64,000 bases of DNA from contig DAIDGV010000024.1 of assembly GCA_027452205.1 (NCBI GenBank), positions 218,750 through 282,749 on the forward strand, given 5' to 3'. Below, piece after piece: positions 12,617-51,878 of the stretch. Below the pieces are notes generated by a model. The model was not told where the DNA came from. It saw nothing but the letters and a program-made list of their open reading frames with translations, and searched no databases. Source of the stretch: a candidate division FCPU426 bacterium (GTDB lineage Bacteria > Oederibacteriota > Muellerivitia > Muellerivitales > Muellerivitaceae). The position numbers and the translations under genes were made by a program. Positions within the stretch are counted from its first letter, which is position 1, and each line of letters opens with the position of its first letter.

Positions 12617-12667
12617 GGGTAAATTTCCTTTCCAGGATCGGCATCGATAAGGAACGAACAACCCGAA

Positions 12668-12706
12668 TTTATCGGCGTTTATCAGCCTTGATCGGCGGGT
12701 TGCTTT
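12668..12706. repeat. Family A half-repeat
   Basis: Only the right arm is well preserved: TTTATCGGCGTTTATCAGCC continuing to GATCGGCGGGTTGCTTT. The matching left arm is reduced to a degenerate ATCGGCATCGATAAGG near 12637-12652. It separates the two NHL/SGNH paralogues. Confidence 0.7.
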
Positions 12707-12757
12707 GTCTTTTAGTTGGTAATCCCGCTTATTTTATCGCAGATCAAGTGAAGACGG

Positions 12758-14743
12758 TCATTTAGAAGGGGCGCCGGGACCCAAAGGGATCCATCCCTTT
12801 TGCGGGAGGTAATGCAGCAAAAGCTGGGCGATCAATTCGTTCCCGTAGGCTGAAAAGTGCTGGTGGCAGCAGGCTTCAGTGGCGGGGTAATAGCTATATC
12901 TCAGGTCCTCATAGGGTTTGGACAGGTCCAGCAGGTCCAAATTGTTCTGCGTGCAAACATCCGACCAAAAAGACCGGTAATGAGCGACATAATCGCAGTC
13001 AGGATCTGGGACAAATAAGAACTTAAGCCGCGGCGCGTGCCCCGCGGGACTGACCCTAACTGTTCTCAACCGATGGTCCAGGACTTGTAAGGGTTTGCCC
13101 AGCATCGTGATCAGGTCGTTCCGGACCTCCGACCCGCCCCGGTTCAACAAATCCTGAAAAAAGACGAATTTTAAGCGCTGCGGATTCTCCTCATAGACCA
13201 AGTGAAGGTCGAAGCATTGCTTGAGAAAACTTGCGGGAACGCCGGAAGGGACCCGTTCTTTCCAGGGCTTGGCCAAGTATTCGGTATCCAGGGGGCCGGG
13301 GATACCTTCGGAGGTCAGGGGGCGAAGGAAATAATCCTCGAAAGCTTCCTCAAACGTCGGGGTCAGAAGACCCAACACCAGGTCCACGTCGTATTTTTCC
13401 ACCACCGGAGGCACCTGCTCGTTCACGAAAAAAGGCAGTTTTAATCCTGGCCGGCCCAACACCAGTACCTCAAAATGCTCGGAGACCCCTTCCAAAGCGG
13501 CTTCGGTATTCAACAATAGTTCCAACCGTTTGGCGAAGGTGTCCAACCGCAGAGAACGGAAATCCTGGTTGGTGACCGCCGCGTGTTTTTCCAACTCCTC
13601 ATCGCTCAAGACCCTCGGCGCGGTGACCACGCGGGAGGTCCCCACGATCAGGATGCGAAAGGTCTTGGGCGGTTTTTGCGTGGGATAATCGAAGTCCGTC
13701 AATTCCCGGTTGACTCCCGCGGGATCCCGGGCAGACCAATGCTCGGCGTAATGATCGTCCTTCACGCTGATGACACAGTTCAAATGGGCCCGGGGTTGGG
13801 CGATGAAAAAACGATCCTTCTCCCGGGGCGAGACCGCGAATCCCATCGCCGACCCTCCCGATGGCCCGATCAGGGGGAAATAGCTGGGGTTTTTGGCCGA
13901 GAGCAGGAAGCCGCCCATGGAAGGGATACCCACCGACCGGGGTTCGGGCCAAAGAACGACCATGGGATCCTCCCCGGCCTGCAATGCGTATAGCTGGTCT
14001 CCCGCGAAGGTCATCTCCTCAATGCCGTCGCCGGTGGCGATCTGGCTCATCACCGACGGCGCTGCCGACGGGTCCGTGCCCGCGGCACGGTCGATACGGT
14101 AGACCGCGGAATTTTTCATGTCGGAAACAAAAAGGATCCCCTCATGGATGCAGATCGCCGTGGGCGATGTCAGCACCGGATTGTTCTGGAGGGCGATGGT
14201 GACCTTGTCGGTCTTCAGGTCGAACCGGTCCAACCGGTTGTTCAGGGGGTCGGTCAGGTAAAGGGCGTTGTCTTCCGCCCGGTAAGCCATATTCCAGAGC
14301 GGTCCCACGTTCTTGGCCAGGACGTGGAAGGTCTTGGTGCCCAGATCGATCCATTTCAAGGACTGGTCGTTCACGCAATAGACCACCAAATGATCCCCAG
14401 GCAGATAAAGGATAAGCATGGGTCCGGACAGTGAAATACGGCCGAGGGGTCCTTCGTCTTTGTTATCCGGGCCTGAGCCAGCCAGGGTCTCGACCCGGTT
14501 ATCCTCGTCTAGATAGATCACCCGGATGCGGTTATTGCGGCTGTCCGCCACGAAAAGACGCTGGCCCTTGTCATCGAAAGCCAATCCGGTGGGTTGGTTG
14601 AAACGGGCGTCATCAAAAGCGCCATCCTCATAACCCGCGTCATCGTTTCCCGCCACCAAGTTGGTGTAATAATTCATCGGCGAGACAGCCCCCAGGGGGG
14701 CTGTGAGGATCAAAAGGAAAAGAACGCGTTTGAGGTATTTCAT
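12758..14743 (-). CDS. Secreted NHL-propeller / SGNH-like protein, paralogue 2
   Basis: This is a 661-aa paralogue of the gene at 10637, with the same architecture. A signal peptide (MKYLKRVLFLLILTAPLG) precedes the shared family motif NYYTNLVAGNDDAGYEDGAF. NHL repeats (FNQPTGLAFDDKGQRLFVAD, SRNNRIRVI) run to about residue 320. A second domain starts RILIVGTSRVVTAP and ends CCHQHFSAYGNELIAQLL. The block I motif is GTS here and GNS in paralogue 1, so the candidate catalytic Ser is kept in both. The start at 14743 is 26 bp after the livM stop, suggesting one transcript with livH-livM. An upstream in-frame start at 14803 would overlap livM. Confidence 0.85.
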   Translation of the reverse strand: MKYLKRVLFLLILTAPLGAVSPMNYYTNLVAGNDDAGYEDGAFDDARFNQPTGLAFDDKGQRLFVADSRNNRIRVIYLDEDNRVETLAGSGPDNKDEGPLGRISLSGPMLILYLPGDHLVVYCVNDQSLKWIDLGTKTFHVLAKNVGPLWNMAYRAEDNALYLTDPLNNRLDRFDLKTDKVTIALQNNPVLTSPTAICIHEGILFVSDMKNSAVYRIDRAAGTDPSAAPSVMSQIATGDGIEEMTFAGDQLYALQAGEDPMVVLWPEPRSVGIPSMGGFLLSAKNPSYFPLIGPSGGSAMGFAVSPREKDRFFIAQPRAHLNCVISVKDDHYAEHWSARDPAGVNRELTDFDYPTQKPPKTFRILIVGTSRVVTAPRVLSDEELEKHAAVTNQDFRSLRLDTFAKRLELLLNTEAALEGVSEHFEVLVLGRPGLKLPFFVNEQVPPVVEKYDVDLVLGLLTPTFEEAFEDYFLRPLTSEGIPGPLDTEYLAKPWKERVPSGVPASFLKQCFDLHLVYEENPQRLKFVFFQDLLNRGGSEVRNDLITMLGKPLQVLDHRLRTVRVSPAGHAPRLKFLFVPDPDCDYVAHYRSFWSDVCTQNNLDLLDLSKPYEDLRYSYYPATEACCHQHFSAYGNELIAQLLLHYLPQKGWIPLGPGAPSK

Positions 14744-14769
14744 GGGATCTCTTGGACCAACGGCCGGGT

Positions 14770-15735
14770 TTATTGGGGGGAACGGGGTTTGAACAGTTCC
14801 CAAATTTCACGCCGCCCCAGCATGCCCTGGGGCCGCACCAGCATCATCACGATCAGCAAGAAAGAGTATATGACCATTCGCAGGTCCACATGGGTCCAAT
14901 CCTGAAGGGGCCGCAAAGCCTCGGGTAAAAAAGTGAGGATAAAGGCCGCCAAGATGGCCCCCGAAACCGACCCCATGCCGCCCAAGACCACCATGATGAC
15001 GATCTCGACCGATTTCATGAAATCGAAGGAACTGGGGTTGATATAGGAAAGATAATGGGCGAAAAGCCCGCCGGCCACGCCCGCCACCGCTGAGGAGACC
15101 ACAAAAGCGCCTACTTTATAGGTGGTCGTGTCCACCCCCATGGCTTCCGCCGCGATCTCATTCTCGCGGATGGCCAACAAGGCCCGGCCTTGGGACGCCA
15201 TCACGAACCGGTGCGTCAAAAGCACGAAAGCGGATAAGAGAAAAACGACCAAAAAGGCGCTGGTGCTATTGGGGATGCTGATGAAACCCCGGGCCCCGCC
15301 TACCGCTTGGATATTGAGGATGATGACCCGGATGATCTCGCCAAAACCCAAGGTGACAATGGCCAAATAATCGCCCCGGAGGCGCAAGGTCGGCAGACCC
15401 ACCAAGTAACCCACGAAACCACTGGCGATGGCCGCCGCCAAAAGGGACAGAAGCAAAGCCGCCTGGTCTCCCAGGGGCGTTCCATGCAGAAAGCCCAGCC
15501 CGAAAACATTGAGTGAAGCCGCGGTATAGGCGCCCACCGCCATGAACCCCGCTTGGCCCAGGGAAAACTGGCCCGAAAGACCATTCACCAGATTGAGGGA
15601 CACTGCCAGGATGGCGTTGATGCAAGCGAGGATCAGAAGTTGGCCGAAATAAGGCGGAAGGACTTGGGTCAAACCTTGGGCGGCCAAAGCGATGACCGTT
15701 AGGATGACCAACCACTGAAGGTTCGCGCGCATCAC
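14770..15735 (-). CDS. livM: Branched-chain amino acid-type ABC transporter permease LivM
   Basis: This is a 321-aa inner-membrane permease of the HAAT family. Hallmarks are LAVSLNLVNGLSGQFSLGQAGFMAVGAY near the N-terminus (seen in two parts), LPTLRLRGDYLAIVTLGFGEIIR and IRENEIAAEAMGVDTTTYK, the EAA-type loop for ATPase contact. The C-terminal segment GGMGSVSGAILAAF is also typical. The start overlaps the livH stop by 4 nt (ATGA). The ATPase partners LivG and LivF are not in this window; the likely binding protein lies 3 kb away at 18840. Confidence 0.93.
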   Translation of the reverse strand: MMRANLQWLVILTVIALAAQGLTQVLPPYFGQLLILACINAILAVSLNLVNGLSGQFSLGQAGFMAVGAYTAASLNVFGLGFLHGTPLGDQAALLLSLLAAAIASGFVGYLVGLPTLRLRGDYLAIVTLGFGEIIRVIILNIQAVGGARGFISIPNSTSAFLVVFLLSAFVLLTHRFVMASQGRALLAIRENEIAAEAMGVDTTTYKVGAFVVSSAVAGVAGGLFAHYLSYINPSSFDFMKSVEIVIMVVLGGMGSVSGAILAAFILTFLPEALRPLQDWTHVDLRMVIYSFLLIVMMLVRPQGMLGRREIWELFKPRSPQ

Positions 15736-36438: not shown

Positions 36439-39400
36439 TTAGTGGAATATGGCGACTTTGCCCGTCTTGATCCGGCTTTCCGATCCATCGTTCACCTGGA
36501 TAGCGAACACGTAGAGGCCCGAGGCCACACGAGCCCCGACCGTATTCCGGATCGACCAAGGAATGGTATTCATCCCCGTTTGACCTTCAATGGTTTTCGA
36601 ATAAACCTGTTGGCCCATCAAATCGTAGAGGCTCAGTTTAACGGTAGCGGGCGAGCCCAATTGCACCATGAAATCGATCGGTTCCCCATTGCGGGAGATA
36701 TTCGGCCAAGCCGCGGCGGTCTGCAACAACCCGGCAACGGTCGGCGTGGCGGTAACGGTCGGGGTCGAGCTGGCGGTCGGCGTCGAGCTTGGCTTGACCA
36801 GGCTGCTCGCGTTGGTCACGGAAGTATTCGACCGAATTGCCGCCGCTCGGGCCATCGCCATGGACGGCGTCAGGCCCGTACAGTTGGGACAATACTGAAT
36901 GACCACGGTATAGGTGTATTCCAGGACTGGATTGGTCGGATTCGTATTGCCCGGCCAACTGACCTGGATTGCAAGGTCATTATTGGCGCCCAACTGCAAT
37001 TCGGTGGCTCCATACATTTCTGCGCTGAAGGTGTTGCCGCTATTCGATTCCTCCACCCCATTCAACCAGACGCTGACGGTGGGCTGGACTAACCGTGCCC
37101 CGCTTCCCTTGCCAGAAACGTTGATCACGACCGAGGAAGCGCACAAAGGAACATTAAAGTTGGCCAAAGCCAGCAAGGAGTCCTTACCCGTAGAAGTAGC
37201 GGACGAATTGTACGAATCATAATAAGCGCCCGGATAGCCATAGATCGAAGCGACCGGAGGTGTCACTTGGACCGCGTTTGCCCAGCCGCTCGTGGCAAAC
37301 CCGGGGTTATACCAACCCGTCGGTGTGGGTGTACCTGTACCTTGATACAAGACAACATCCGAAGAGCTATCAGAAATATAGATGGAGGTCTCCTGACAAG
37401 TGGCCGTATTGGTCACGGTCGGGGTCTGGCTATTGGTTTGGGTGGGGGTAGTCGTTTCGGTCGGCGTCGTGGTGCTGGTCAAAGTGTTGGTCGGGCTATT
37501 GGTAACGGTTTGAGTGGCGGTATTAAGCGGCGTATTTGTGCTGGTTGAAGTGCTCGTCGGGCTATTGGTAGCCGTCGAAGTGGCCGTATTGGTCTGTGTA
37601 TTGGTAACCGTGGCCGTGGCCGTGTTCAAGGAAGTATTGGTTGGGGTGTTGGTTTGAGTATTAGTCACGGTTGAGGTACAGGTCATTGTAGCCGTAGCCG
37701 TTGAGGTGTTCGTAGCGCTCGAAGTTGTGGTATTCAAAGCAGTGTTGGTCGGGGTATTCGTGACCGTATTGGTCGTGCTGTTCGTAGTAGTCGAAGTATT
37801 GGTGGCGGTTGAAGTAGACGTATTAATAGGCGTGTTGGTCGGTGTATCGGTAACCGTATTGCTCGAGGTGTTCGTAACAGTTAAAGTCGCGGTATCAGTC
37901 GCCGTCGAGGTCGACGTATCCGTGGCGGTATTGGTCGAAGTGTTCGTTGTGGTCAAAGTCGCCGTGTTCGAAACGGTACTGGTTGTCGTATTGGTAGCGG
38001 TATCGGTCGCAGTATTGGTAGCGGTCGAAGTAAACGTATTAACAGAAGTGTCGGTCGGCGTATTGGTAGCTGTGTTGCTCGAGGTATTCGTAGCGGTTGA
38101 AGTCGCGGTATCGGTGGTCGTCGAGGTCGACGAATCCGTAGCGGTATCGGTCAAAGTGTTCGTCGCGGTCGAAGTCGCTGTATTCGAAACGGTGCTGGTA
38201 GCAGTATTGGTGGCCGTATTAGTTGAAGTATTGGTTGAAGTCAAAGTAGCCGTATTCAAAGACGTGTTGGTCGGTGTATCGGTAACCGTGTTGCTCAAGG
38301 TATTCGTCGCGGTTGAAGTCGCGGTATCAGTCGCCGTCGAGGTCGACGAATCCGTAGCGGTATCGGTCGAAGTGTTCGTGGCGGTCGAAGTAGACGTATT
38401 CAAAGATGTATCAGTCGGCGTCTGAGTAACCGTATTGGTCATAATACTCGTAGCCGTCAACATGGGAGTCAAGGTAGCGGTCATGACCTGGGTATCGGTC
38501 AGCGTAGACGAAGGCGTAGTAGTCACCGTCGGCGTCGATGAATTAACAGGGGTTGTCGTAGCCGTTGAGGTCGCCGCGGAACCGCAAGGACCCAGGTCTT
38601 TCCAAAGCGCCGGTACGGCGGGCGGGTCCCAACCGGTTATAGAAGTATGTCCTTGGATACATTGATAAAGCTCGCCGTTATAAACAACCTCTGTACCGAC
38701 CGTATAAGCGACCCCAATAGCCCATTGAGGAATATTGGCGCAGTTCAATAGGACCGGCGTGGAAGTGGCCCCCACGCAAGGCCCCACGTCACTCCATAAA
38801 GTGGCCGTGACCGGAGGCTCCCAATTGGGCAGCGAATTGTGGGCTTGGATACAAATGTAGATCTCGGTGCCATAAACGACCTTTTGTCCCACGGTATAAG
38901 AAACCCCATTCCCCGACCAATCAGGGTAATTGGCGCAATTGTTCGGGTTCGGCGTCATCGTGGACGTGGTAGTAGGCGTTTGGGTGGCCGTAGCGGTCGA
39001 AGTCATCGTCGCAGTTGCCGTGCTGGTCATACTGGCCGTATTGGTGGCGATCGAGGTGTTGGTAGAAGTGAAGGTCATGGTCCCGCTCGGCGAGACCGTT
39101 ACCGTATTGGTTATCGTCGAGGTGGGAGTGGCGGTGGTGGTCGAACCACAATTGAATTCAAGTACCCGGTTATTGGAATCATCGGCCACGAACAAGGAAC
39201 CGTTTACCGCTTGGATCTGATTCGATCCATTCCAGGTAAATAAGGTGTTCTGCTGGGCCGTACCACCGTTATTAGGTTGATTGGTGAAGAATCCAGGTTG
39301 CCCGATCACATGATTCGCCGGCGGATTGGCGGTCCCCGTCGGGATATTGTTATAGATCAAGACCCGGTTGGCGTGGTCTTCAACGAACAACTGACCGTTG

Positions 39401-42400
39401 GAGGCCGAAACATACTCGGCTCCGCTGAACACATTGTTACCCAAACCGCCCGCGTTGGTAGTAAAGGAAGATTGACCGACCACCGCGTCCGCAGGCGGAT
39501 CATTGGTCAACAAACTATCGATATTGTTATAGATCAATACACGGCTGTTGCTGTTATCGGCCACGAAAAGCGCGCCGTTATAGACATAGATCCCACCGGG
39601 TGAGGCCAAACTTTGAGCGGACAGCCCCCCCTGATTGATCCCGCTCGTGTTCATGAAAGGTTGACCGATAACCTCATCCGCGGGAACCCCATTGCCCATC
39701 GGCAACTGGTTATAAACCAAAACGCGGTTGTTACCCGAGTCACTGATGAACAGGCGGGTACCGTCATAAAAGACGCTGGTCGGTTGAAACAAGCTGGAAG
39801 AATTCGGTGGATTCGGGGATGCGAGACCGGCCATGGTGCTTTGGCCCACCACCCAAGTGGCGCTGCCTCCCATTGCGGGCATGCCCCCAATATTGTTATA
39901 GATCAGCACGCGGCTGTTCCCCATATCGGCCACGATCAATATCGAACCATCGGTCCAGACCCCACCCGGATTGGCCAAAGTGTTCGACGCGGGGATGGGA
40001 TAGGTCGAATTCGTGGCAAAATTGGGCTGCCCAAAGACTTGGACCGCCGAAGCTCCGTTCAGCGTTGGGGCGGGGTTATAGATCAAAATCCGGCCATTTC
40101 CGCTATCGGTAACGGCCAATTTGCCGCCACCCTCAAATACACCCCGCGGATTGGACAAAGAATTGGGGCCCAAAGGCGTGGTCGCGGTCGTGGTGAACAA
40201 GTTTTGCCCAACCACCAAATTAGCGGACGCAAAATCGGCAAAGGTGCAAGAGGTGGCCGGCGTGACCGTAGCCGTGAGGGTATTGGTCGGCGTCAAAGTA
40301 TTGGTCAAGGTAGGCGTCAGGGTCGGCGTATCGGTCGAGGAGATCGTATAAGTCGCGGTCAGGGTCGAAGTGGCCGTCGGGGTACCACAAAGCACCGAAC
40401 TCCAAACATCGGAGAGCAGCGGGTTTGTGAAATAACCATCCAGCAAGCCCGTGGTACCGATAGGACCGGTTACCACCCAAGGCATTCCACCGATGATCCA
40501 CATGCGACCATCAAAGACTGTCGCAGCCTGGAAACCCCTGGGCGGGAAACCGCCATTCTGCGTGGCCGAATACCAATTAACACCATCGCAGGTGTACCAG
40601 ACGTCACTGCCCGTTCCATAATTGCCGCTCATCAACCACATCTTGCCGTCATAATTCAGAACCGATTGGTTGGCCTTGTTGCCGTAAGCGGGCGCAGGGG
40701 TAGCTAAAATCCAATGGACACCGTCGCTAGACTTATAGATATAAGATGAAGGGCCACCTCCCGCATTCTCCCCGCCGATTAACCAGACACTACCGTTATA
40801 GACATTGATCGAATAAGCCGAGAAGAAGGCAGACTCGGGAATTGCGGGAAGATTGGAGGCTGTCACCAGGCTCCAGGTAGCCCCGGCATTGGTAGACTCA
40901 TATTCGGTGGTCAGCGAACTGGCATTGCCACCGACTGCGTACAACGTCCCCCCCAGATCAAACAATTGATTAGCGCTGAACCCGATTGGGAAGTTGGAAG
41001 AGGCCCATGTCGTACCGTTGCTTGTTTGCTCCAGGACTGCGCCCGAACTGGTATTGAGGACAACATATAAGGTCCCGTTTGATCCGCCAATATTTGGGTC
41101 CACATAGGCCGAAATAACCGTGTCACCGGTCGGGAAGCTAAAGCTGTTGTGGTTCCAGTTCACGCCGTCATTGGATGTCCAAATGTCGTCATAGGTTACG
41201 CCGGTCCCCTCTCCACCGATCAACCACATTTGATTCATAAAGGTGACCAAAGCAGCATTGTTTCTTCCGCCAAATGGGCCCGAGGAAAGATTTCGGCTCC
41301 AAACCGCTCCCTCGTTGACACAACTCAGATTGCAAATAGCCGGTGTAATGGTGGCGGTATTGGTCAACGTAGCCGTCGAGGTATTGACAATCATTGGTGT
41401 TGTGGTCTGGGTAGAAGTAGGCGTGAACGTTAGGGTATTAGTCATGGTCTGGGTCGGGGTGGCCGTTGCCAATGTATGCGGACAGGTCTCAAAGACCTCG
41501 ACCCGGCCATTGATGGCATCGGCCACATAAATGAAATTCCCGCTGACCGTGATCGCATCAGGTTGATTGAACTGGCCGTAACCGGCGCCCATCGTTCCCC
41601 ACGAAACCAACAAACTGCCTGAGGGGTTGAACTCTTCGATCCGGTTATTCCCCGCGTCCGCGACATAAAGGTCATTCATGGCATCGACTGTAATACCGGA
41701 CGTTTGCGAGGTCGAAGGCCCGACCGCACTGGTGATCTGGCGGATGAACGCGCCCGCGGCAGAATATTCTTGTACGCCCGTTTGATAGCTCACATAGACA
41801 TCACCCAGAGAATCGATGGCCAACCGCTGGATAGGATAGGACGCGGGCACATTGGAAGCGGTGAAAGAACCTAATGGTGAACCCATAACGCTATACCAAT
41901 TCACCACATTGCCCGTGGCAATGAAGATCTTGTCAGTTGGATCGCTGGCAATGGAGCTGAGCGTACCCGAGACCGGCACCGTGGGCCAGCAACTGGTCGG
42001 CGAACCGCCCGCGGGGCTATAACGGCAAACACTGTTGGGGGAAGCGGAATAGACCAAAAGATCCCCGTTCGACAAACTGGTCATTCCATAATTGCCGCCA
42101 TAAGGGACCATGGAATTCAGATAAGAACCCGAGTCGGTGAACCGTTGGATCCCGTTGGGCCCATTCGTCGAGGACGCGACATAAACATCCCCGTTGGTGC
42201 CAGCCGCGATATATTCCGGGTAATCCGCGTAAAACTGCCCGGGATTGGTACCCGGAGAGCCCCAAGCGGAAATGAAGACCGGCGTAATGCAAGGTGTGGT
42301 CGTGAAATTCAGCGTATTGGTGGGGATCGGAGTTTGGGTCGCTACATCGCAAGGTTGGAACTTGACCACGTTCCCATTGCCTTGATCGGTCACATAAACG

Positions 42401-45400
42401 GCGCCAATGGAATCCACCGTGACTCCAAAAGGCGAGCTGAATTGCTGCCCCGGAGCCGTGATCGGACCCAAGGTCGCCACTGAGGACCCACTGGGATTGA
42501 ACACGTCCACTTCTTTGTTCGCCGAATCGACCACATAAATGAACCCGCTCGGATCCACCGACAACCCTTGTAAGACCGCACCCGGCGTCGTGACCGTGAT
42601 CGGCGGCAGGTAAGTCGCGAAGCTGCTTCCTGTGATCGTGTAAGAAACGATCTGATTCCCTTCGGCCAAATACACATGGCCCGAATTATCCACGGCGATG
42701 AACCCATTGGAACCAGAAGTAGGAATGGACACATCCGGTGTCACAACCGTGCCATTACTATTGAAACGACGAATACCCTGGCTGGTGATCACATAGACTG
42801 TCCCGGCGTTATCCACGGCAATGAAGGGCGCCGCGCTGAAACCGACTGGATCGCCGACTTGCTGGATCGGGAAGGAGATCGGCGACCCGCCCGAATTAGA
42901 GAAGCGCTGAATCCGAAGGCCGGTCGCATTGTGATCGGTCACGAAGATATAACCCGCGCCCGCGCCGGTTCCCAAGGGAGCGGTAAATTGGCCAAGAGCG
43001 GTACCCGATGACCCGAACAGACTGAAAAGGGAACCCGAGGGGTTGAATTGTTGGACTCGGCTATTGCCCGTATCGATCACGTCGACCAACCCGCTAGTGT
43101 CGACCGCGATCCCCAAGGGACCCCTGAATTGGCCTGGCTGGGCGCCCGGTGTACCGAAGGTAGTGCTATAAGCCAAGCAAATGGTCGCGTTCTGGGTCGC
43201 TGTAGTGGTCATAGTTGAGGTGGCAGTTTGTGTAGGCGTAAGGGTTGGAGTTTGGGTCAATGTGGGTGTCATGGTTGGGGTATTGTTATCGCAATTAAAG
43301 ACGAGAACACGGCTGTTACCCGAATCGGCCACATAGACAACCCCATTGACCGCTTGGATCTGTTCGGGCCAATAAAGGGTATAGGCTTGCGGCGTGCTCA
43401 AGCCTTGGTTGATCTGGTTGCCCGAAAAGGTTTGTTGGCCTAAAACAAAATTGGCCGCGGGATTGGCCGTTCCGGTAGGGATCGAGTTGTAAACCAGAAC
43501 ACGGTTGTTATAAAGGTCTGAAACGTAAAGACGCCCATTGTCGGCCGAGACGCTGGAAGGATGGAACATACCATTGTTTGAAGTACCCGAAGCGCTGCTG
43601 GTGTAATTACCCTGTCCGATCACCATGTCTGCCGCCAAGTTCGTCGTGCCCGGCGTGATCGAATCGATCCCCAACCCGCCGTTGTTGAAACCCAGCACAC
43701 GGTTATTCTGGGAATCGGCCACAAATAGGGTTCCGTTATAGACCCACAAACCGCGGGGATCGTCCAAGGTATTAGCCCCGACAGTGCCTCCCTGATTAGG
43801 ACTGCCGCTGGTAAAGTTGCTTTGACCGATGACCTCATCGGCACTCGCATTATTCGACGTCGGCAAAGAGTTATAGATCAATACCCGGTTGTTCACCCGA
43901 TCCGCGACGAACAATCTTTGACCATCAAAATAAACACCAAAAGGATCCGACAAAGTGTTGGCGCCAATGGCGCCGCCTTGATTGGGAGCGCCTGTTGTCA
44001 TCAAGGATTGTCCGATGACAACGCTAGCAAAACCGCCGACGACCGGCAAAGCCCCGACATTGTTGTAAATAAGGACACGGCTGTTCAAATGATCGGCGAC
44101 CACCAAGCGGATCCCGTCGGTCCAAAGGTCGGCGATCTGCCCCAATCCATCACCCGTTACGTTGTTAAAAGTGTAGGATTCGACCGTACCAGTGGTGAAA
44201 TTCGGCTGACCGATCACCTTGTTGGCCGACGGACCGTTGGTGGTGGGGTTCGGCGTATAGATCAAGACCCGATATTGGTCATCCACGAACAACGAATTTC
44301 CCGTTTGGAAAACACCCACAGGCCCCAGCAGCAAAGAACTGTTAACGGGGACCGAGGAGTTATTCGCGGACGTGAAATCCGGCTCACCCACGACCAGCGA
44401 AGCATATTGATCCATTGTTTGCACACAATTGGTCGAAATCGGCGCGGGTGTGTTGGTCGTCGTAAAGCTGGCTGTTAGGGTCGCGGTAGTCGTTGAAGTC
44501 GAGACCGGCGTATTGGTAGTCGTCGTTGTCGAGCTAGGCGTGGACGTCGGCGTAAAGATCACAACTTGGTTGCAAGCCACCTCGCGGACACGGTTATTCC
44601 CCTGGTCAGCGATGAATAGATTACCGCTAGGGTCAACCGCGACCGCGTAAGCCGGGCCTAATTTGGCGCTGGTAGCGGGAATCCCGTCGCCGTTATAACC
44701 CGCCCCGCCAGCCGTGCCGGCGACGGTAGTGATGATATCACTCGCTGGATTGATCTTGAACACACGGTTGTTGGCATTATCGGCCACAAGAATATTGCCC
44801 GAACCATCAACCCCCACACCCACCGGTTGAAGACCCGAGCTTGTCGCGATCGACCCGTCCCCCGAATATGCGGTGGACCCATTGCCGGCCACAGTGGTGA
44901 TCAAGCCGGAAACCAAATTGACCCGGCGAACCCGGTCGTTTACCAGGTCGGAAATATACAGGTTATTTGAGCCGTCGACCGCAACACCCGTCGGGAAATT
45001 CAATTCGGCGCTGGTAGCGGGAATTCCGTCGCCGTTATAACCCGCCGTCCCAGTTCCGGCGATCGTCGAGATCATACCCGTGCCCACATTGACCTTGCGG
45101 ATGCGGTGGTTGCCGAAATCGGCTAGGTAAAGATTCCCGGCCGCGTCCACCGCCACCGCCATGGTTTGGATCTCCGCGCTGGTGGCGGGAATTCCATCGC
45201 CGTTATAGCCTGCCGACCCATTCCCCGCCACGATCGATATCGTCCCCGCCGGATAGGTCACCTTAAGCACATACTCTAAAGAGGCCAGATAAAGGTTATT
45301 CGAGCTATCGACCGCTACCCCGACGGGGCGACCCACATTCGCGCTGGTCGCGGGCCCAGGAATGCCCGCAAATCCACCCACACCGGTACCTGCGGCGGTG

Positions 45401-48400
45401 GTGACGATGCCCGAGACCAAATTGACCTTTCGAACCTGTAATTCATCACTCCAATAAACATTACCCAAGGCATCCGCGGCCACACCCGAGGGATAGTAGA
45501 TCTCGGCGGCCGTCGCCGGGCCTCCATTTCCAGTCGACCCGGCGATGCCGTTCCCGGCGACCGTAAAGATATTGGGCGTACAGCTGACCGTCGCGGTCGT
45601 TGAATAAGTGCTCGTGAAAGAGGCCGTTGCCGTATCTCCCGACGTGATGGTCGAAGTCGGGGAAGGTGTTTGGGTCACGGTCTGGCTAAAGGTCGATGTG
45701 GCCGTTGCGGTGGGGGTCGGGCTGCCGGAAGCGGGGCCGCAGTTAAAGGCTAGGATACGGTTGTCGTTCTGGTCGATCGCGTAGATCGTACCGTTATAAA
45801 CCTTCACATCACCGGTTAAGCTGATCGTGTTTGTGGTCGGCGGGATTTCCAGGCGACTGTTGAAATTGGCCTGGCCCAACACCGCCGACGCGGGCGTATT
45901 GGAAGTTCCAGTGGGAATGTTGTCATAGACCACAACACGGCTGTTTCCCCAATCCGAGACGAACAACTGACCATTACTGATGCTCAATCCTTGGGGTTCA
46001 AAGAAACTCGTGTTGTTCGGCACGGAACTATTAGCGCCGTTGTAAGTATTCGAAGTGAAACTGCTTTGCCCGATGACCGAAATGGCGGCCGGATCGTATC
46101 CAGTGAATGTGTCCGCGTTGGGATAGACCAGGATCCGATTGTTACTCGTATCGCTGACATAAAGGTTGCCGTTATCTACCCAAAGACCCACAGGCCCATT
46201 CAAGGTGAATTGGGTCGGCGAGCTGATAGGATAGGTCGGGCCTTGGTTAGGGCCGTTGCTGGTAAAATTGGGCTGACCGATCACCTCATCCGCTGGAGCG
46301 CCAAAATAGGTTGGGATGGAGTTATAGACCAACACACGGTTGTTCCCCGTATCCGAAATGAATAAACGATGGCCGTCGTAGAACACACCTTCCGGACCAC
46401 CCAAAGTATTGTTATTGACGGGCAAAGCCGTGCTACTGGTCATATTGAGCTGGCCGATCACCATGCTAGCTGTTCCATTGACCGCAGGTAATGACCCGAT
46501 GTTGTTATAAATAAGGACTCGGTTATTGGCTAGGTCCGAGACGATCATCATTGTCCCGTCAGTCCAGATCCCCATCGGTAGATCGAGTGTGTTGTTGTTC
46601 ACCGCGCCGCCCTGATTTGCCGAGCCGGTCGCGAAACTAGTCTGACCAAGGACCTGTACCGCCGGGGGATCATTGCTGGTCGGGGCCGGGGAATAGATCA
46701 AGATCCGATTGTTTTGAGTGTCCGATACGACCATCTTATTTCCAGCCAAGAAAAGCCCTCTGGGATCCGATAAAGTCTTGGCCGAAATGGGCGAAGTGTT
46801 AGCGGTTACAAAATCAGGTTCGCCGACCTCGAACGAGGCGGATTCTCCCGTGGTCAGGGTACAGGTGGCATTGGGGCTGTTGGTCGTAGTCGCGGTATTG
46901 GTGGTCGTTGAGGTATTCGATATTGTCGGGGTCGATGTTGAGGTGCCGGAAGAGCAAGGATCGTAGATAAGCACACGGCTGTTGTTGCCGTCGCTAACCA
47001 ATAAGTAAAGATCGCCCGCGTTATCCACGGTGAAATCGGCCAGGCTGCCTGAACCAATCGTGGGTGTGTATTGGCACAGGTAGTTACCGTTATCGTCATA
47101 GACATAAACGGTCGTGCCGTCGAAGGCATAGACACGGTTCGCGCTATCCGTCTCCAACTCGCTTACGCTGCCAGGCGTATTCACGGACCAGGCAGTCAGG
47201 ATCAATCCATCATTCCTGTATTTAGCGATCTTAGTGCCGTTGGTGGTGAAATAGTTGCCGTTGCTGTCCACGGTCACATTGATATAAAAACCCGGGTCAT
47301 CGGTCCATTGGCCGATGGAACCACCGGTCAATGTCGACCTGGTTAAAATGAGGCCCGCGCTGGAGATCCCTGTGGTAAAGACATACCCGTTGACCCGATC
47401 GATACCGATGCCCATCGGATCATAAACTCCCGTCGAAACAGGGGTCCAAGAAGTAACAAAGCTACCAGTCGCGCTGAATTTATAAACCTCTTTGCTGTTG
47501 TAATCGAAGGCGTAGATGTTGTCGCTGTTATCCGTTTCTGTATCTTCGATCAAGCTGCTCGAGCTGCCCGCGACCGGCGCTATGGATAAATTCAAGCTAC
47601 CGCTCACATATTTTTCGATCTTTGATTCGTTTCCATTGTCAGTCACCCAGACAGCACCCGTACTGTTATCCACTGAGATATGAGCTGGGAAACCATATGT
47701 CGCGCTCGGTGTTGAAACCGTGAACTGGCTAGCCAAATTGTAGCAGCAAGGGACTGGAGTAAAAGAAGAGCCTGGGGTCGGATCGATCGTGGTGGTGACG
47801 GTTTGGGTGCTTGAGCTTGTAGCGGTAGCTGTTGCGGTATTGTTGGTAGTATTGGTCGACGTCTGAGAAGGTGTTTCGGTCAAAGTCGTGGTCAAGGTAG
47901 GGCTTTGTGTCTTTGTTTCAGTACTGGTCGCCGTAGCAGTAGGGGTAGAAGTATAGGTATTGTCCGCCGTCGGGGTCATCGTTCTGGTTTGAGTTGCCGT
48001 TGTCGTTGAAGTAGATGTATTCGTATTTGTCAAAATAGGCGTTAACTGTCCACAAACACACCAGCGATGGATATCAACTTGAGGTTCGCTGGGATTACTG
48101 TAATCGGCTTCGTTAATTAAAAAACAACCATAATCAGCGGTAAGGCTCGTAGTAGCCGGTATCTTCGGATTAAGGGCCACCGCTCTAATGAAATTCCCGT
48201 TGGGATCAAAAATATCGACATTACTTTGATCGAGTATATAAACATCGCCGTTTGTTTGGTCCACAGACATATAAAATGATTTGAAAGAAGAAAGAACACC
48301 TGCTTGATTCAAAAGGTTTAGATTATTTCCATAAGTCATCAGATTTTTTATAAACACACCACTAGGCGAATACTCATCGGAGCCGAAATAAAAATTACCA

Positions 48401-51400
48401 CTTTGATCAATAGCAACATCGATGTCGAGGCCAGCACGATTGGCTAACGTAAAAGTTTGTTGATAACCACTTGGAATACTATCGTTATAAACCACAACAT
48501 TAAGGGCAGTTGTGTTGGTGTTGATATAAGTAATATAAATATTATCGTTCACTGGATTGATGGCAAATCTTTCAATTGAGTACGCATTTGAGGTCGAAGG
48601 GATTTGCGTTGTACTTAAAAGTACCCCTGTTGAACTATAAGCCAATAGAAAGCGGCCCAACAAAGTGTTGGGTGAACTATAAACATTAAGCAGAACATAC
48701 ACTTGACCCAACTTATCAACTGCGATCTCCGGAATGATACCAACTGTGTTAGGCGGCGTAATAAAGGGCGCAATCGAAGGTATGACTGGCCATTGGCGGA
48801 TCAAACTACCCGTGGAATTGAATTCATAGATAGCCTTGGCGTCCTTGTAAAGTGTAAATACATTTCCCGAGGAATCGACGGTTGATACACTGTTTTCTCC
48901 TCCTCCTCCAAAAACAGAAGGCGGCAGTACTGCAAACAACTCGCTTTGATAACCATTGATACAAGTTGAGTTGGCGGTGACTGAAACAGTCGCCGTCAAG
49001 GTATGCGTTGCGATCTCTGTATAGGTATTCGTTGCCGTGGCCGTATTGCGGGGTGTCGCGCTATCCGAGGGTGTACTGGTCGCAGTACGAGTGTTTGTCA
49101 CAGTCCGGGTCTCGGTAACCGTATGGGTGGATGTTGAAGTATGAGTATTGGCGGCTGTCGGGGTCATCGTTCGGGTTTGGGTCGACGTGGACGTTCCGGT
49201 GGAAGTGCGCGTGTTTGTCACGGTGGCCGTATTGCGGGGAGTAGAAGTGTCTGTGGCCGTGCTGGTTGAAGTGCGAGTATTCGTTACGGTTCGAGTTTCT
49301 GTGACGGTATGGGTATTGGTCACTGTTCGTGTGTGGGTAAGGGTTTGAGTATGGGTCACTGTCTGTGAATTCGTAACGGTAGCGGTGTGGGTTGAAGTAG
49401 AAGTCGCCGTTTGGGTGCGGGTATGGGTGATGGTATTGGTTTCAGTGGGAGTATGGGTAACGGTAGCAGTATGGGTTTCCGTGGAGGTATGTGTTTCCGT
49501 GTGGCTCGGGGTTTGTGTATTCGTCATCGTCCGGGTGTTCGTTCTGGTGAACGTATGAGTGACGGTAGCGGTTTGGGTTGAAGTAGAGGTGGCGGTTTGG
49601 GTCCGGGTATGGGTGATGGTATTGGTTTCAGTGGCCGTGTCAGTAACGGTTTTGGTGTTGGTCACCGTATTCGTGGAAGTACGGGTCGAGGTAGGCGTAA
49701 CTGTGTTGGTCGGGGACGGTGTGCCGCTGGAAGTGGAGGTAGAGCTATTGGTGCCGGTAGCCGTGGAAGTATTCGTGGCCGACATACTGACGGTGGCAGT
49801 GGCCGTAACAGTGGCCGTATTGGAGAAAGTAGCGGTAGGTGTGCTGGTACCGGTATCGGTTGGGCTGATCGTCGAACTATTGGTGCCGGTGGCGGTAGCG
49901 GAATTAGTGACGGATTCGGTCACGGTTTCCGTTCCCGTATTGGTGGCCGAATAAGTCACCGTAGCGGTCTGAGTGAATGTTTCCGTAGGGGTCACCGTAC
50001 CGGTCCAAGTGGAACTCGGGGTACTGGTAGCGGTCATGGTAACTGTTTCGGTGTTCGTGCTCGTATTCGTAGCCGTATTGCTGGCCGTTTCGGTGGAGGT
50101 TTGAGTGGGGGTAAAGCTAGGACAGGTCTTGAAACAAGATGGCTCTTGGCCCGAATTAGGGTCTATGGTCGTCGGGGACAACCACTCTTGAACAGGGACA
50201 CCTTGGTAATAAAGAACGAAGTAGGGATCATCAACATACCCATAAGTAGGCGGTGAGGTATTGGTATCCGAGCAAACCCCGCCTTGTGCGGCCGGCATTT
50301 GGGTGTAATCGGTCGAGGGATTCAGGGTAGGCCACCCCGCCCCATTAAGTGAGAATTCTGTACCACCCCAAATTCCGCCCGGCGGGATAGCGATGGTCGT
50401 GGAAGGAGAATTTATGACCACCTTCTGATTTGCCATACGGTTCGATGGGCTGGCACAAAGTGGCAAGTTATAGACCGATATGGCATCGACTGGAGTTCCA
50501 AGCCCAGGAAGCGTTCCAGGAACCGAACCTGCAGTCACGACCGATCCATTCCAATAGATCGTCCCAATCAAGGGCACTTCGTCGTACCACGCCGCTACCG
50601 CCAGATCAGAAACATTGATCGGGACAGAAGAATTGTTGATGACCTCGAACCGATACTGATAGTTGTTCGGTTGACAAATGATTTGTCTGACCTTTAGATC
50701 TAACTTAGGTGTGTTGCCGCACAATTGATAATTGGGAGTGGAAGTAAACGTAGGTGTGTTCGTAACGGTAAAGGTATTGGTTGGCGTGAAGGTCGGCGCA
50801 ACACCATAGTCGCAAACTCGGACGATCTCCGATCCTGAGTTGTCATTGCAAAAATAGCTGTTAACGTCATTCGCGTTTAAGTAAAGATAGTTCTGAGTAG
50901 CTGTAAACGGAGCCGTCGAATTATAAGGCGGCGTTGAACCAGCAGTTTGAGCGCTAGGACAGTCGATAAATATATCCCCCGCGGCAATACCGGCAGTTAA
51001 ATTACCATGTGCGGGGCTGCTAGCCCATTCCGAATAACTGCCCTGACCCACATAAAAAGGCGCCGACAGTCCGGTGCCGATCGTATCGCTGGCTTGATGT
51101 AGGATGATCCGGGTGCCGTCGAGATTAACTCCCTGTCCGTTGTAAGTGTCACCTCCATAACTGATACAACCGCTGACATAACTCACTTGATATAGATTCC
51201 CCGGGATCAACGGAACTTGTACCGCATAGGCAGCATATCCGGAAGCGGAGCCGCTATCTTTTTGATCACAATTTTGGAGACCTTGGACCGTATAGGTCTC
51301 GCAAGAAATCGGAGCCGGCAAAGAAACAGCGGGTATATTGGATACGAGCAAAGGCACGGCCGCATTGGCGCTTGCTGCTTCGGGTTGTATCGATTGGGGT

Positions 51401-51564
51401 CTAGGTGTGGGTGTAGGAACTTGCGCAAAACCATTGGAAGAGAACCCTAAAAGGAACATGACGTTGATTAGAGCCGTTAAACTCAAAACAACTTTTATCC
51501 GTTCGAATAAAATTTTCGAACCGGCAAAAAGCGCCCAATTGGTTATCGACTTAAATAGATACAA
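36439..51564 (-). CDS. Giant secreted multi-propeller protein (about 5,040 aa)
   Basis: One uninterrupted 15-kb frame. A signal peptide with a long N-region ends FSSNGFAQ. By position the modules are: N-terminal beta domains (to 50131, one CBM3-like), a Thr-rich linker (50130-48965), and NHL-type propellers at 48963-48040, 47748-46953, 46863-45739, 45582-44569, 44427-43291, 43179-42349 and 42291-41482. A kelch-like domain (41334-40386) and an eighth propeller (40248-39148) follow. Two CBM5/12-like domains come next (38942-38776, 38745-38584), then a second Thr-rich linker (38583-37400), a beta domain and a FlgD-like C-terminus (about 36700-36442). Nearly every module starts and ends with Cys. 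TTG at 51564 has GAGGA 6 nt upstream and is preferred over GTG at 51588, which lacks an RBS. An adhesin or matrix protein is inferred. Confidence 0.93.
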   Translation of the reverse strand: MYLFKSITNWALFAGSKILFERIKVVLSLTALINVMFLLGFSSNGFAQVPTPTPRPQSIQPEAASANAAVPLLVSNIPAVSLPAPISCETYTVQGLQNCDQKDSGSASGYAAYAVQVPLIPGNLYQVSYVSGCISYGGDTYNGQGVNLDGTRIILHQASDTIGTGLSAPFYVGQGSYSEWASSPAHGNLTAGIAAGDIFIDCPSAQTAGSTPPYNSTAPFTATQNYLYLNANDVNSYFCNDNSGSEIVRVCDYGVAPTFTPTNTFTVTNTPTFTSTPNYQLCGNTPKLDLKVRQIICQPNNYQYRFEVINNSSVPINVSDLAVAAWYDEVPLIGTIYWNGSVVTAGSVPGTLPGLGTPVDAISVYNLPLCASPSNRMANQKVVINSPSTTIAIPPGGIWGGTEFSLNGAGWPTLNPSTDYTQMPAAQGGVCSDTNTSPPTYGYVDDPYFVLYYQGVPVQEWLSPTTIDPNSGQEPSCFKTCPSFTPTQTSTETASNTATNTSTNTETVTMTATSTPSSTWTGTVTPTETFTQTATVTYSATNTGTETVTESVTNSATATGTNSSTISPTDTGTSTPTATFSNTATVTATATVSMSATNTSTATGTNSSTSTSSGTPSPTNTVTPTSTRTSTNTVTNTKTVTDTATETNTITHTRTQTATSTSTQTATVTHTFTRTNTRTMTNTQTPSHTETHTSTETHTATVTHTPTETNTITHTRTQTATSTSTHTATVTNSQTVTHTQTLTHTRTVTNTHTVTETRTVTNTRTSTSTATDTSTPRNTATVTNTRTSTGTSTSTQTRTMTPTAANTHTSTSTHTVTETRTVTNTRTATSTPSDSATPRNTATATNTYTEIATHTLTATVSVTANSTCINGYQSELFAVLPPSVFGGGGENSVSTVDSSGNVFTLYKDAKAIYEFNSTGSLIRQWPVIPSIAPFITPPNTVGIIPEIAVDKLGQVYVLLNVYSSPNTLLGRFLLAYSSTGVLLSTTQIPSTSNAYSIERFAINPVNDNIYITYINTNTTALNVVVYNDSIPSGYQQTFTLANRAGLDIDVAIDQSGNFYFGSDEYSPSGVFIKNLMTYGNNLNLLNQAGVLSSFKSFYMSVDQTNGDVYILDQSNVDIFDPNGNFIRAVALNPKIPATTSLTADYGCFLINEADYSNPSEPQVDIHRWCVCGQLTPILTNTNTSTSTTTATQTRTMTPTADNTYTSTPTATATSTETKTQSPTLTTTLTETPSQTSTNTTNNTATATATSSSTQTVTTTIDPTPGSSFTPVPCCYNLASQFTVSTPSATYGFPAHISVDNSTGAVWVTDNGNESKIEKYVSGSLNLSIAPVAGSSSSLIEDTETDNSDNIYAFDYNSKEVYKFSATGSFVTSWTPVSTGVYDPMGIGIDRVNGYVFTTGISSAGLILTRSTLTGGSIGQWTDDPGFYINVTVDSNGNYFTTNGTKIAKYRNDGLILTAWSVNTPGSVSELETDSANRVYAFDGTTVYVYDDNGNYLCQYTPTIGSGSLADFTVDNAGDLYLLVSDGNNSRVLIYDPCSSGTSTSTPTISNTSTTTNTATTTNSPNATCTLTTGESASFEVGEPDFVTANTSPISAKTLSDPRGLFLAGNKMVVSDTQNNRILIYSPAPTSNDPPAVQVLGQTSFATGSANQGGAVNNNTLDLPMGIWTDGTMMIVSDLANNRVLIYNNIGSLPAVNGTASMVIGQLNMTSSTALPVNNNTLGGPEGVFYDGHRLFISDTGNNRVLVYNSIPTYFGAPADEVIGQPNFTSNGPNQGPTYPISSPTQFTLNGPVGLWVDNGNLYVSDTSNNRILVYPNADTFTGYDPAAISVIGQSSFTSNTYNGANSSVPNNTSFFEPQGLSISNGQLFVSDWGNSRVVVYDNIPTGTSNTPASAVLGQANFNSRLEIPPTTNTISLTGDVKVYNGTIYAIDQNDNRILAFNCGPASGSPTPTATATSTFSQTVTQTPSPTSTITSGDTATASFTSTYSTTATVSCTPNIFTVAGNGIAGSTGNGGPATAAEIYYPSGVAADALGNVYWSDELQVRKVNLVSGIVTTAAGTGVGGFAGIPGPATSANVGRPVGVAVDSSNNLYLASLEYVLKVTYPAGTISIVAGNGSAGYNGDGIPATSAEIQTMAVAVDAAGNLYLADFGNHRIRKVNVGTGMISTIAGTGTAGYNGDGIPATSAELNFPTGVAVDGSNNLYISDLVNDRVRRVNLVSGLITTVAGNGSTAYSGDGSIATSSGLQPVGVGVDGSGNILVADNANNRVFKINPASDIITTVAGTAGGAGYNGDGIPATSAKLGPAYAVAVDPSGNLFIADQGNNRVREVACNQVVIFTPTSTPSSTTTTTNTPVSTSTTTATLTASFTTTNTPAPISTNCVQTMDQYASLVVGEPDFTSANNSSVPVNSSLLLGPVGVFQTGNSLFVDDQYRVLIYTPNPTTNGPSANKVIGQPNFTTGTVESYTFNNVTGDGLGQIADLWTDGIRLVVADHLNSRVLIYNNVGALPVVGGFASVVIGQSLMTTGAPNQGGAIGANTLSDPFGVYFDGQRLFVADRVNNRVLIYNSLPTSNNASADEVIGQSNFTSGSPNQGGTVGANTLDDPRGLWVYNGTLFVADSQNNRVLGFNNGGLGIDSITPGTTNLAADMVIGQGNYTSSASGTSNNGMFHPSSVSADNGRLYVSDLYNNRVLVYNSIPTGTANPAANFVLGQQTFSGNQINQGLSTPQAYTLYWPEQIQAVNGVVYVADSGNSRVLVFNCDNNTPTMTPTLTQTPTLTPTQTATSTMTTTATQNATICLAYSTTFGTPGAQPGQFRGPLGIAVDTSGLVDVIDTGNSRVQQFNPSGSLFSLFGSSGTALGQFTAPLGTGAGAGYIFVTDHNATGLRIQRFSNSGGSPISFPIQQVGDPVGFSAAPFIAVDNAGTVYVITSQGIRRFNSNGTVVTPDVSIPTSGSNGFIAVDNSGHVYLAEGNQIVSYTITGSSFATYLPPITVTTPGAVLQGLSVDPSGFIYVVDSANKEVDVFNPSGSSVATLGPITAPGQQFSSPFGVTVDSIGAVYVTDQGNGNVVKFQPCDVATQTPIPTNTLNFTTTPCITPVFISAWGSPGTNPGQFYADYPEYIAAGTNGDVYVASSTNGPNGIQRFTDSGSYLNSMVPYGGNYGMTSLSNGDLLVYSASPNSVCRYSPAGGSPTSCWPTVPVSGTLSSIASDPTDKIFIATGNVVNWYSVMGSPLGSFTASNVPASYPIQRLAIDSLGDVYVSYQTGVQEYSAAGAFIRQITSAVGPSTSQTSGITVDAMNDLYVADAGNNRIEEFNPSGSLLVSWGTMGAGYGQFNQPDAITVSGNFIYVADAINGRVEVFETCPHTLATATPTQTMTNTLTFTPTSTQTTTPMIVNTSTATLTNTATITPAICNLSCVNEGAVWSRNLSSGPFGGRNNAALVTFMNQMWLIGGEGTGVTYDDIWTSNDGVNWNHNSFSFPTGDTVISAYVDPNIGGSNGTLYVVLNTSSGAVLEQTSNGTTWASSNFPIGFSANQLFDLGGTLYAVGGNASSLTTEYESTNAGATWSLVTASNLPAIPESAFFSAYSINVYNGSVWLIGGENAGGGPSSYIYKSSDGVHWILATPAPAYGNKANQSVLNYDGKMWLMSGNYGTGSDVWYTCDGVNWYSATQNGGFPPRGFQAATVFDGRMWIIGGMPWVVTGPIGTTGLLDGYFTNPLLSDVWSSVLCGTPTATSTLTATYTISSTDTPTLTPTLTNTLTPTNTLTATVTPATSCTFADFASANLVVGQNLFTTTATTPLGPNSLSNPRGVFEGGGKLAVTDSGNGRILIYNPAPTLNGASAVQVFGQPNFATNSTYPIPASNTLANPGGVWTDGSILIVADMGNSRVLIYNNIGGMPAMGGSATWVVGQSTMAGLASPNPPNSSSLFQPTSVFYDGTRLFISDSGNNRVLVYNQLPMGNGVPADEVIGQPFMNTSGINQGGLSAQSLASPGGIYVYNGALFVADNSNSRVLIYNNIDSLLTNDPPADAVVGQSSFTTNAGGLGNNVFSGAEYVSASNGQLFVEDHANRVLIYNNIPTGTANPPANHVIGQPGFFTNQPNNGGTAQQNTLFTWNGSNQIQAVNGSLFVADDSNNRVLEFNCGSTTTATPTSTITNTVTVSPSGTMTFTSTNTSIATNTASMTSTATATMTSTATATQTPTTTSTMTPNPNNCANYPDWSGNGVSYTVGQKVVYGTEIYICIQAHNSLPNWEPPVTATLWSDVGPCVGATSTPVLLNCANIPQWAIGVAYTVGTEVVYNGELYQCIQGHTSITGWDPPAVPALWKDLGPCGSAATSTATTTPVNSSTPTVTTTPSSTLTDTQVMTATLTPMLTATSIMTNTVTQTPTDTSLNTSTSTATNTSTDTATDSSTSTATDTATSTATNTLSNTVTDTPTNTSLNTATLTSTNTSTNTATNTATSTVSNTATSTATNTLTDTATDSSTSTTTDTATSTATNTSSNTATNTPTDTSVNTFTSTATNTATDTATNTTTSTVSNTATLTTTNTSTNTATDTSTSTATDTATLTVTNTSSNTVTDTPTNTPINTSTSTATNTSTTTNSTTNTVTNTPTNTALNTTTSSATNTSTATATMTCTSTVTNTQTNTPTNTSLNTATATVTNTQTNTATSTATNSPTSTSTSTNTPLNTATQTVTNSPTNTLTSTTTPTETTTPTQTNSQTPTVTNTATCQETSIYISDSSSDVVLYQGTGTPTPTGWYNPGFATSGWANAVQVTPPVASIYGYPGAYYDSYNSSATSTGKDSLLALANFNVPLCASSVVINVSGKGSGARLVQPTVSVWLNGVEESNSGNTFSAEMYGATELQLGANNDLAIQVSWPGNTNPTNPVLEYTYTVVIQYCPNCTGLTPSMAMARAAAIRSNTSVTNASSLVKPSSTPTASSTPTVTATPTVAGLLQTAAAWPNISRNGEPIDFMVQLGSPATVKLSLYDLMGQQVYSKTIEGQTGMNTIPWSIRNTVGARVASGLYVFAIQVNDGSESRIKTGKVAIFH
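37858..38430. repeat. 216-bp (72-codon) tandem repeat in the second Thr-rich linker
   Basis: The stretch beginning GTCGACG occurs at 37910, 38126 and 38342, exactly 216 bp apart. The flanking sequence (GCTCGAGGT before, CCGTAGCGGTAT after) repeats with it. About 2.6 units are present; the last is shortened near 38425. The encoded repeat is 72 residues of TDTATDSSTS-like sequence. Confidence 0.85.
49377..49636. repeat. 186-bp-spaced direct repeat in the first Thr-rich linker
   Basis: A stretch of about 74 bp recurs at 49377-49450 and 49563-49636 (186 bp, 62 codons apart), including GTATGGGTGATGGTATTGGT at 49421 and 49607. It encodes TETNTITHTRTQTATSTST in both copies. Confidence 0.8.
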
Positions 51565-51878
51565 TTTTTTCCTCAACTGCAGGAACACGCTTGATAAATA
51601 AAATTCAAATAGTTTTTTGATTTAAAAGACGAGGGATTCTATATTTTTTTTGAAAAGTTGCATCTGATCATTGATGTAAAACGATAGGAAAATTTTTTGG
51701 AACAAAACGAAGACAAAAATTAAAAACGTTTTTGTGGACATAATTGAACCAGGGCATCGTTTACCAAAAATATACTGATACTGTTTTAAAAATTTAATTA
51801 AACGGCTGAAAAATAAGGGGAAAAAACAAAAAAGGGAAGGCCCGTTTGGACCTTCCCTTTGAACATACGACCTACTTT
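51565..51878. other. AT-rich spacer before the giant gene
   Basis: About 310 bp between icd and the giant gene, clearly more AT-rich than the surroundings. It must carry the giant gene's promoter on the minus strand, but no convincing -35/-10 pair could be singled out from the many A/T runs. Its right part contains the icd terminator. No reading frame is supported. Confidence 0.5.
51821..51860 (-). terminator. Terminator of icd
   Basis: On the minus strand the stem AAAGGGAAGG/CCTTCCCTTT with a 10-nt loop is followed by TTTTTGTTTTTT. It lies 19 bp after the icd stop. Confidence 0.87.

Follow-up and report, generated by a model that had tools for sequence, protein, structure and literature searches.

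The window analysed here (64,000 nt from an uncultured bacterium of soil type) contains a gene of 15 kb, complement(36439..51564), which encodes a protein of 5,041 aa built from a signal-like start, two kinds of carbohydrate-binding module, about eight propellers, one kelch-like domain, two long Thr-rich linkers and a C-terminal sorting domain resembling those of the type IX secretion system (T9SS). The chain of eight propellers, the carbohydrate-binding modules (CBMs), the T9SS tag and a gene for an SprA-type translocon in the same genome make it probable that this giant protein is exported by Sec, sorted by a T9SS and used as an adhesin or scaffold for polysaccharide surfaces, a role that we propose from sequence comparisons. 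Among the relatives examined there was no protein with the same domain set, and the literature searched gave no description of such a protein. Its style of protein is common in the lineage, and the giant, as the largest example seen and the one assembled from the most varied parts, is an extreme case and not a new kind of system.

Reading frame and domain architecture

The longest version of the frame, complement(36439..51588), starts with GTG and codes for 5049 aa, and residues are numbered here from that GTG at 51588. The best-looking start is nevertheless the in-frame TTG at 51564, which is preceded by a Shine-Dalgarno-like GAGG and six A. The sequence-only reading had described a single open frame of 15 kb without assigning a strand; the frame is indeed uninterrupted, lies on the minus strand, as do all the parts listed below, and its end at 51564 is this TTG. 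A plus-strand translation is full of stops. A frame of such length with this order of domains is not a chance frame. The neighbouring genes code for HAD and EamA proteins and for an isocitrate dehydrogenase, unrelated to the giant, and deduction of its function from operon context was therefore dropped.

By eye and by hydropathy, the start of the protein is signal-like, with the hydrophobic stretch VVLSLTALINVMFLL in residues 9–56 (51421..51564) and a likely cleavage near GFA/Q. The domain that follows (residues 57–265; 50794..51420) had no match in Pfam, in the PDB or in the fetched loci of relatives; a resemblance by eye to PA-IL-type lectins was rejected, there being no Pfam or PDB match. 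Residues 288–491 (50116..50727) probably form a remote CBM3 domain, below the Pfam cut-off by itself (E = 0.14), with homologues in the same genome and in the family. A profile of eight homologues, A3, matched 13 distinct PDB sequences (best E = 1e-6), all of CBM3 type and named as scaffoldin, cellulose-binding or glycosidase chains. The first Thr-rich linker (48979..50115; 379 aa, 44 % Thr) adjoins this domain and leads to P1 (48046..48978).

About eight propellers were recognised (P1 to P8), P2 to P8 being well supported and P1 less so; in the Pfam scan, 16 NHL stretches individually exceeded the threshold, and TEN_NHL was matched with E = 6e-23. The propellers are of three types. The long 'VIGQ' type comprises P3 (residues 1584–1958; 45715..46839), P5 (2386–2768; 43285..44433) and P8 (3792–4146; 39151..40215), with mutual identities of 44–49 % (47 % between P3 and P8). 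Their similarity to one another far exceeds that to any other sequence fetched, which makes these three most likely intragenic duplicates. P4 (2008–2342; 44563..45567) is a teneurin-type NHL propeller, carrying the TEN_NHL match and aligning with a teneurin-like protein of the PDB (9ifo, E = 3e-95). The short type comprises P1 (871–1181), P2 (1273–1547; 46948..47772), P6 (2810–3086; 42331..43161) and P7 (3102–3369; 41482..42285). P2 matches P6 by BLAST (E = 5e-12) and falls slightly below the NHL cut-off (18.4 bits against 20). The divergent P1 had no significant NHL match in Pfam (E = 0.35), and hhalign aligned it with a profile of P2, P6, P7 and one relative with a probability of 86 % over 54 columns. 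Both the GC content (0.41) and the GC3 of P1 (0.36, against 0.57–0.69 from P2 onward) are far below those of the remainder of the gene, and a separate origin of this segment is possible.

The fold was modelled for P3 only. With three input sequences, AlphaFold returned a propeller with six blades and 24 strands (pLDDT 70.5, pTM 0.78), and a Foldseek search with this model retrieved the NHL domain of TRIM71 (E = 1e-15). Between P7 and P8 there is a kelch-like domain (residues 3413–3732; 40393..41352) with one marginal Kelch_1 match in Pfam (20.3 bits, cut-off 20.1); its identity with a relative rich in clear kelch repeats is 30 % (E = 1e-25).

Downstream of P8, Pfam identifies two CBM_5_12 stretches (PF02839; 89.6 bits against a cut-off of 26.2, E = 1e-25), at residues 4224–4266 (38791..38919) and 4289–4330 (38599..38724). 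The second aligns with the chitin-binding domain of chitinase A1 from Bacillus circulans (PDB 1ed7, E = 3.7e-13), and both keep the equivalents of Gln679 and Trp687, residues of ChiA1 that reference 45 of PMC8449059 links to chitin binding in its title. The PDB match and the kept residues point to chitin specifically as the ligand of the pair. The second Thr-rich linker (37396..38568; 391 aa, 46 % Thr) contains degenerate 216-bp units, the sole long tandem DNA repeats of the gene.

A beta-rich domain follows (residues 4732–4932; 36793..37395), with a homologue in L095/L026, and modelling suggests that it is probably a sugar-binding jelly roll. For the last 318 residues AlphaFold, supplied with two sequences, gave a low-confidence model (pLDDT 52), whose Foldseek matches to GH2 enzymes have TM-scores of ca. 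0.2, a lead at most; a PDB sequence search with these residues gave no match. The protein ends in a tail of 98 aa (residues 4952–5049; 36442..36735) that passes TIGR04183, the NCBIfam model for T9SS type A sorting domains (30.8 bits; cut-off 23), as well as Pfam FlgD_ig (28.3 bits; cut-off 27), and stays below the threshold of Pfam Por_Secre_tail (PF18962; 15.7 against 27). A type B sorting domain was not detected: CHU_C (PF13585) scored 19.4 bits, below its cut-off of 27, and TIGR04131 had no listed match.

The sequence-only reading had named an N-terminal CBM3-like domain, eight NHL-type propellers, a kelch-like module, two CBM5/12-like domains, two Thr-rich linkers of about 390 residues and a FlgD-like C-terminal domain, of a kind that often ends secreted proteins with sorting signals. 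All these modules were recovered, P1 having the weaker case among the propellers, and the structure prediction that it proposed as a check gave, for P3, the expected NHL propeller. Two parts had escaped it, the N-terminal domain at residues 57–265 and the beta-rich domain.

Secretion genes and chitin-directed proteins of the genome

The genome (2.89 Mb in 28 contigs, 99.4 % complete) was compared with seven further genomes from its family and with another 44 from its phylum. It codes for a protein of 2028 aa that passes the SprA equivalog model TIGR04189 (203.3 bits, cut-off 200), a T9SS translocon of SprA/Sov type (L099:4086-10169, at ca. 209–215 kb of contig C3). SprA-like matches appeared in 40 of the 45 genomes of the phylum in a six-frame search, and only three genomes exceeded the cut-off of the model, so that most SprA-like proteins of the phylum are divergent. 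A PorV-like protein, also from the genome of the giant, scored 82.9 bits with the PorV family model, just under the cut-off of 90. No C25 sortase (PorU) was found in this genome or in the seven family relatives, and the same search gave matches in four of the 44 other genomes of the phylum. The GldM model matched nowhere, the controls included, and is hence uninformative. In Bacteroidota, the C25 sortase anchors type A substrates; as neither this genome nor the family gave a match to it, the giant might be released into the medium or anchored by another route.

The phylum lies outside Bacteroidota, the group to which T9SS sorting domains were described as restricted in a 2023 review (PMC10202324). 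In the literature searched, T9SS and Goldbacteria co-occur only through a mention of T9SS in a reference list. The presence of SprA-type translocons and T9SS-like tails across this phylum bears on the distribution of the T9SS, and the phylum-wide signal, with C25 matches in few of the genomes, could be a more interesting lead than the giant.

The CBM5/12 domain occurs in 13 copies over nine open reading frames of the genome and in none of the seven family relatives, which belong to the FCPU426/Goldbacteria group. Besides the giant, the nine comprise one GH16 protein, two GH18 proteins, one with both GH16 and GH18, two with pro-kumamolisin, one with a sortilin-type propeller and one without another assignment; sorting-like tails occur in this group on proteins with GH18, GH16 or pro-kumamolisin domains. 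Between the giant and the GH16 protein, the CBM5/12 sequences share 64 % identity. This distribution suggests a set of exported, chitin-directed proteins that is particular to the bacterium and whose mark the giant shares. Within the family, propellers were seen combined with CBM5/12 only in this genome. A second such combination is an exported protein of 1132 aa that pairs a CBM5/12 with a propeller of sortilin/BNR type, encoded ca. 8 kb to the left of the window (L080:2994-6389, contig C24). Elsewhere (L076:1490-16013, contig C21), three neighbouring CBM5/12 proteins carry GH16 or GH18 plus malectin domains and, from these assignments, are likely a degradation cluster for chitin or beta-glucan.

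Proposed role and alternatives

As an adhesin or scaffold, the giant would be delivered to the periplasm by its signal peptide through Sec, and its type A-like C-terminal domain would direct it through the SprA-type channel of the outer membrane, as the sequences of both suggest. Towards the N terminus, the CBM3-like domain could then bind cellulose-like surfaces, and towards the C terminus the CBM5/12 pair could bind chitin-like ones. The Thr-rich linkers would act as long spacers, probably glycosylated, and the NHL and kelch-like propellers, set in a row, would present numerous faces to which glycans or proteins could bind. The outcome would be that the cell, or an enzyme, is kept together with its substrate. 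In the sequence-only reading, the protein was a cell-surface or matrix fibre presenting many propellers; a secreted protein with many propellers, directed to the surface or matrix, fits all the evidence, the sorting tail and the SprA gene included, whereas its fibrous nature and its anchoring to the cell surface found no support, the C25 sortase being missing from the matches in this genome and its family.

Precisely because the usual sortase is missing, the chief rival is a component of the matrix or biofilm that is exported by the T9SS, freed and bound through its CBMs to chitin or cellulose, the propellers recruiting other secreted proteins. Its export in the same style as the CBM5/12 enzymes of the genome speaks for this reading too; against it, the giant might be anchored by a route other than C25, and we hold release to be a possible, rather doubtful explanation. 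An enzymatic role, in which at least one propeller would be catalytic and hydrolyse or cleave its substrate, like some six-bladed propellers of SGL, Vgb or PAL type, with the CBMs for targeting, appears quite improbable, since Pfam placed no enzyme family above its cut-off in any scanned module. In its favour, NHL propellers may also be enzymes, CBMs usually go with enzymes, and there were weak SGL and DUF5128 matches as well as a PAL structure among the fold matches.

The least credible alternative, and a very improbable one, is an assembly artefact that fused several genes into one frame, a concern already raised in the sequence-only reading. The source is a draft genome of 28 contigs, and the N-terminal third of the gene is AT-richer, as P1 shows, which suggests from composition either a separate origin of that segment or a join. 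However, exact repeats within the gene all stay below 40 bp, so that a misassembly driven by internal repeats is unlikely and a short-read assembler would have had little reason for joining genes. The frame is moreover continuous over 15 kb with linkers in an ordered arrangement, one relative (L095) has the identical order of linker, C-terminal domain and tail, and another (L073) codes for a protein of comparable style in one long frame.

Returning to the adhesin or scaffold, its most specific version is a giant propeller-based glycan adhesin, exported by a T9SS that operates without a C25 sortase outside Bacteroidota and serving as a docking scaffold for the chitin-degrading enzymes marked by CBM5/12; we advance this version tentatively and consider it unlikely as a whole. 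If the adhesin or scaffold reading is right, it would show how an uncultured lineage of low abundance keeps hold of chitin and cellulose, with a shared binding domain tying a giant adhesin to a set of enzymes. The size, the eight propellers and the link to a chitin-degrading set are notable, and would be of little surprise to a specialist in uncultured phyla.

Known systems and large relatives

The closest functional parallels are SprB and RemA of Flavobacterium johnsoniae, adhesins exported by the T9SS as proposed here, SprB being also very large. We know of no string of propellers and CBMs in SprB. The giant further differs from both in coming from a phylum outside Bacteroidota and in the lack of C25 matches in its genome (the GldM search being uninformative). 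RemA has a type A tail and uses PorV, and SprB has a type B tail (PMC10202324), unlike the type A-like tail of the giant. With ChiA1 the giant shares the domain aligned with 1ed7 through its second CBM5/12, including Gln679 and Trp687; in ChiA1, however, this domain serves a chitinase, whereas the giant has no recognised catalytic domain. Its propellers have the fold and repeat of the NHL propellers of TRIM71, the Pizza designs and teneurin-like proteins, although here about eight separate propellers are placed, with linkers, on one exported chain. The probable remote CBM3 and the notion of an extended scaffold with many domains recall scaffoldins (CipA) and cellulosome scaffolds, from which the giant departs in having neither cohesin nor dockerin in the Pfam scan.

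FCPU426 groups with Goldbacteria, a group of the rare biosphere, of which one member was captured on cellulose and has CBM3 among its CBMs (PMC7031533). Among the relatives compared are isolate palsa_1180 (PLZG01), a bacterium of candidate division FCPU426, and bacterium isolate LS_FP_2_bin.106. In the family, the tail of the giant commonly recurs on large proteins, in open frames of up to 3196 aa, and their overlapping parts identify the giant as an extreme member of a local style. The longest, L073 (3196 aa, FCPU426 group), combines kelch and NHL propellers with a CBM3-like domain and the same tail; in L095, from the same group (at least 1339 aa, ending at a contig edge), NHL propellers and Thr-rich linkers are joined by the jelly-roll-like domain and the tail. 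Unlike the giant, both are shorter and, as in all seven family relatives, CBM5/12 is absent.

Other proteins of related style are encoded by the same genome. A frame of 3383 aa with NHL, malectin and RHS repeats, a giant of the same style, is cut by the end of contig C3 (L074:5846-15994), and two adjoining NHL proteins of 674 and 681 aa are encoded on the minus strand of the window at 10637-14803, ca. 22 kb from the giant.
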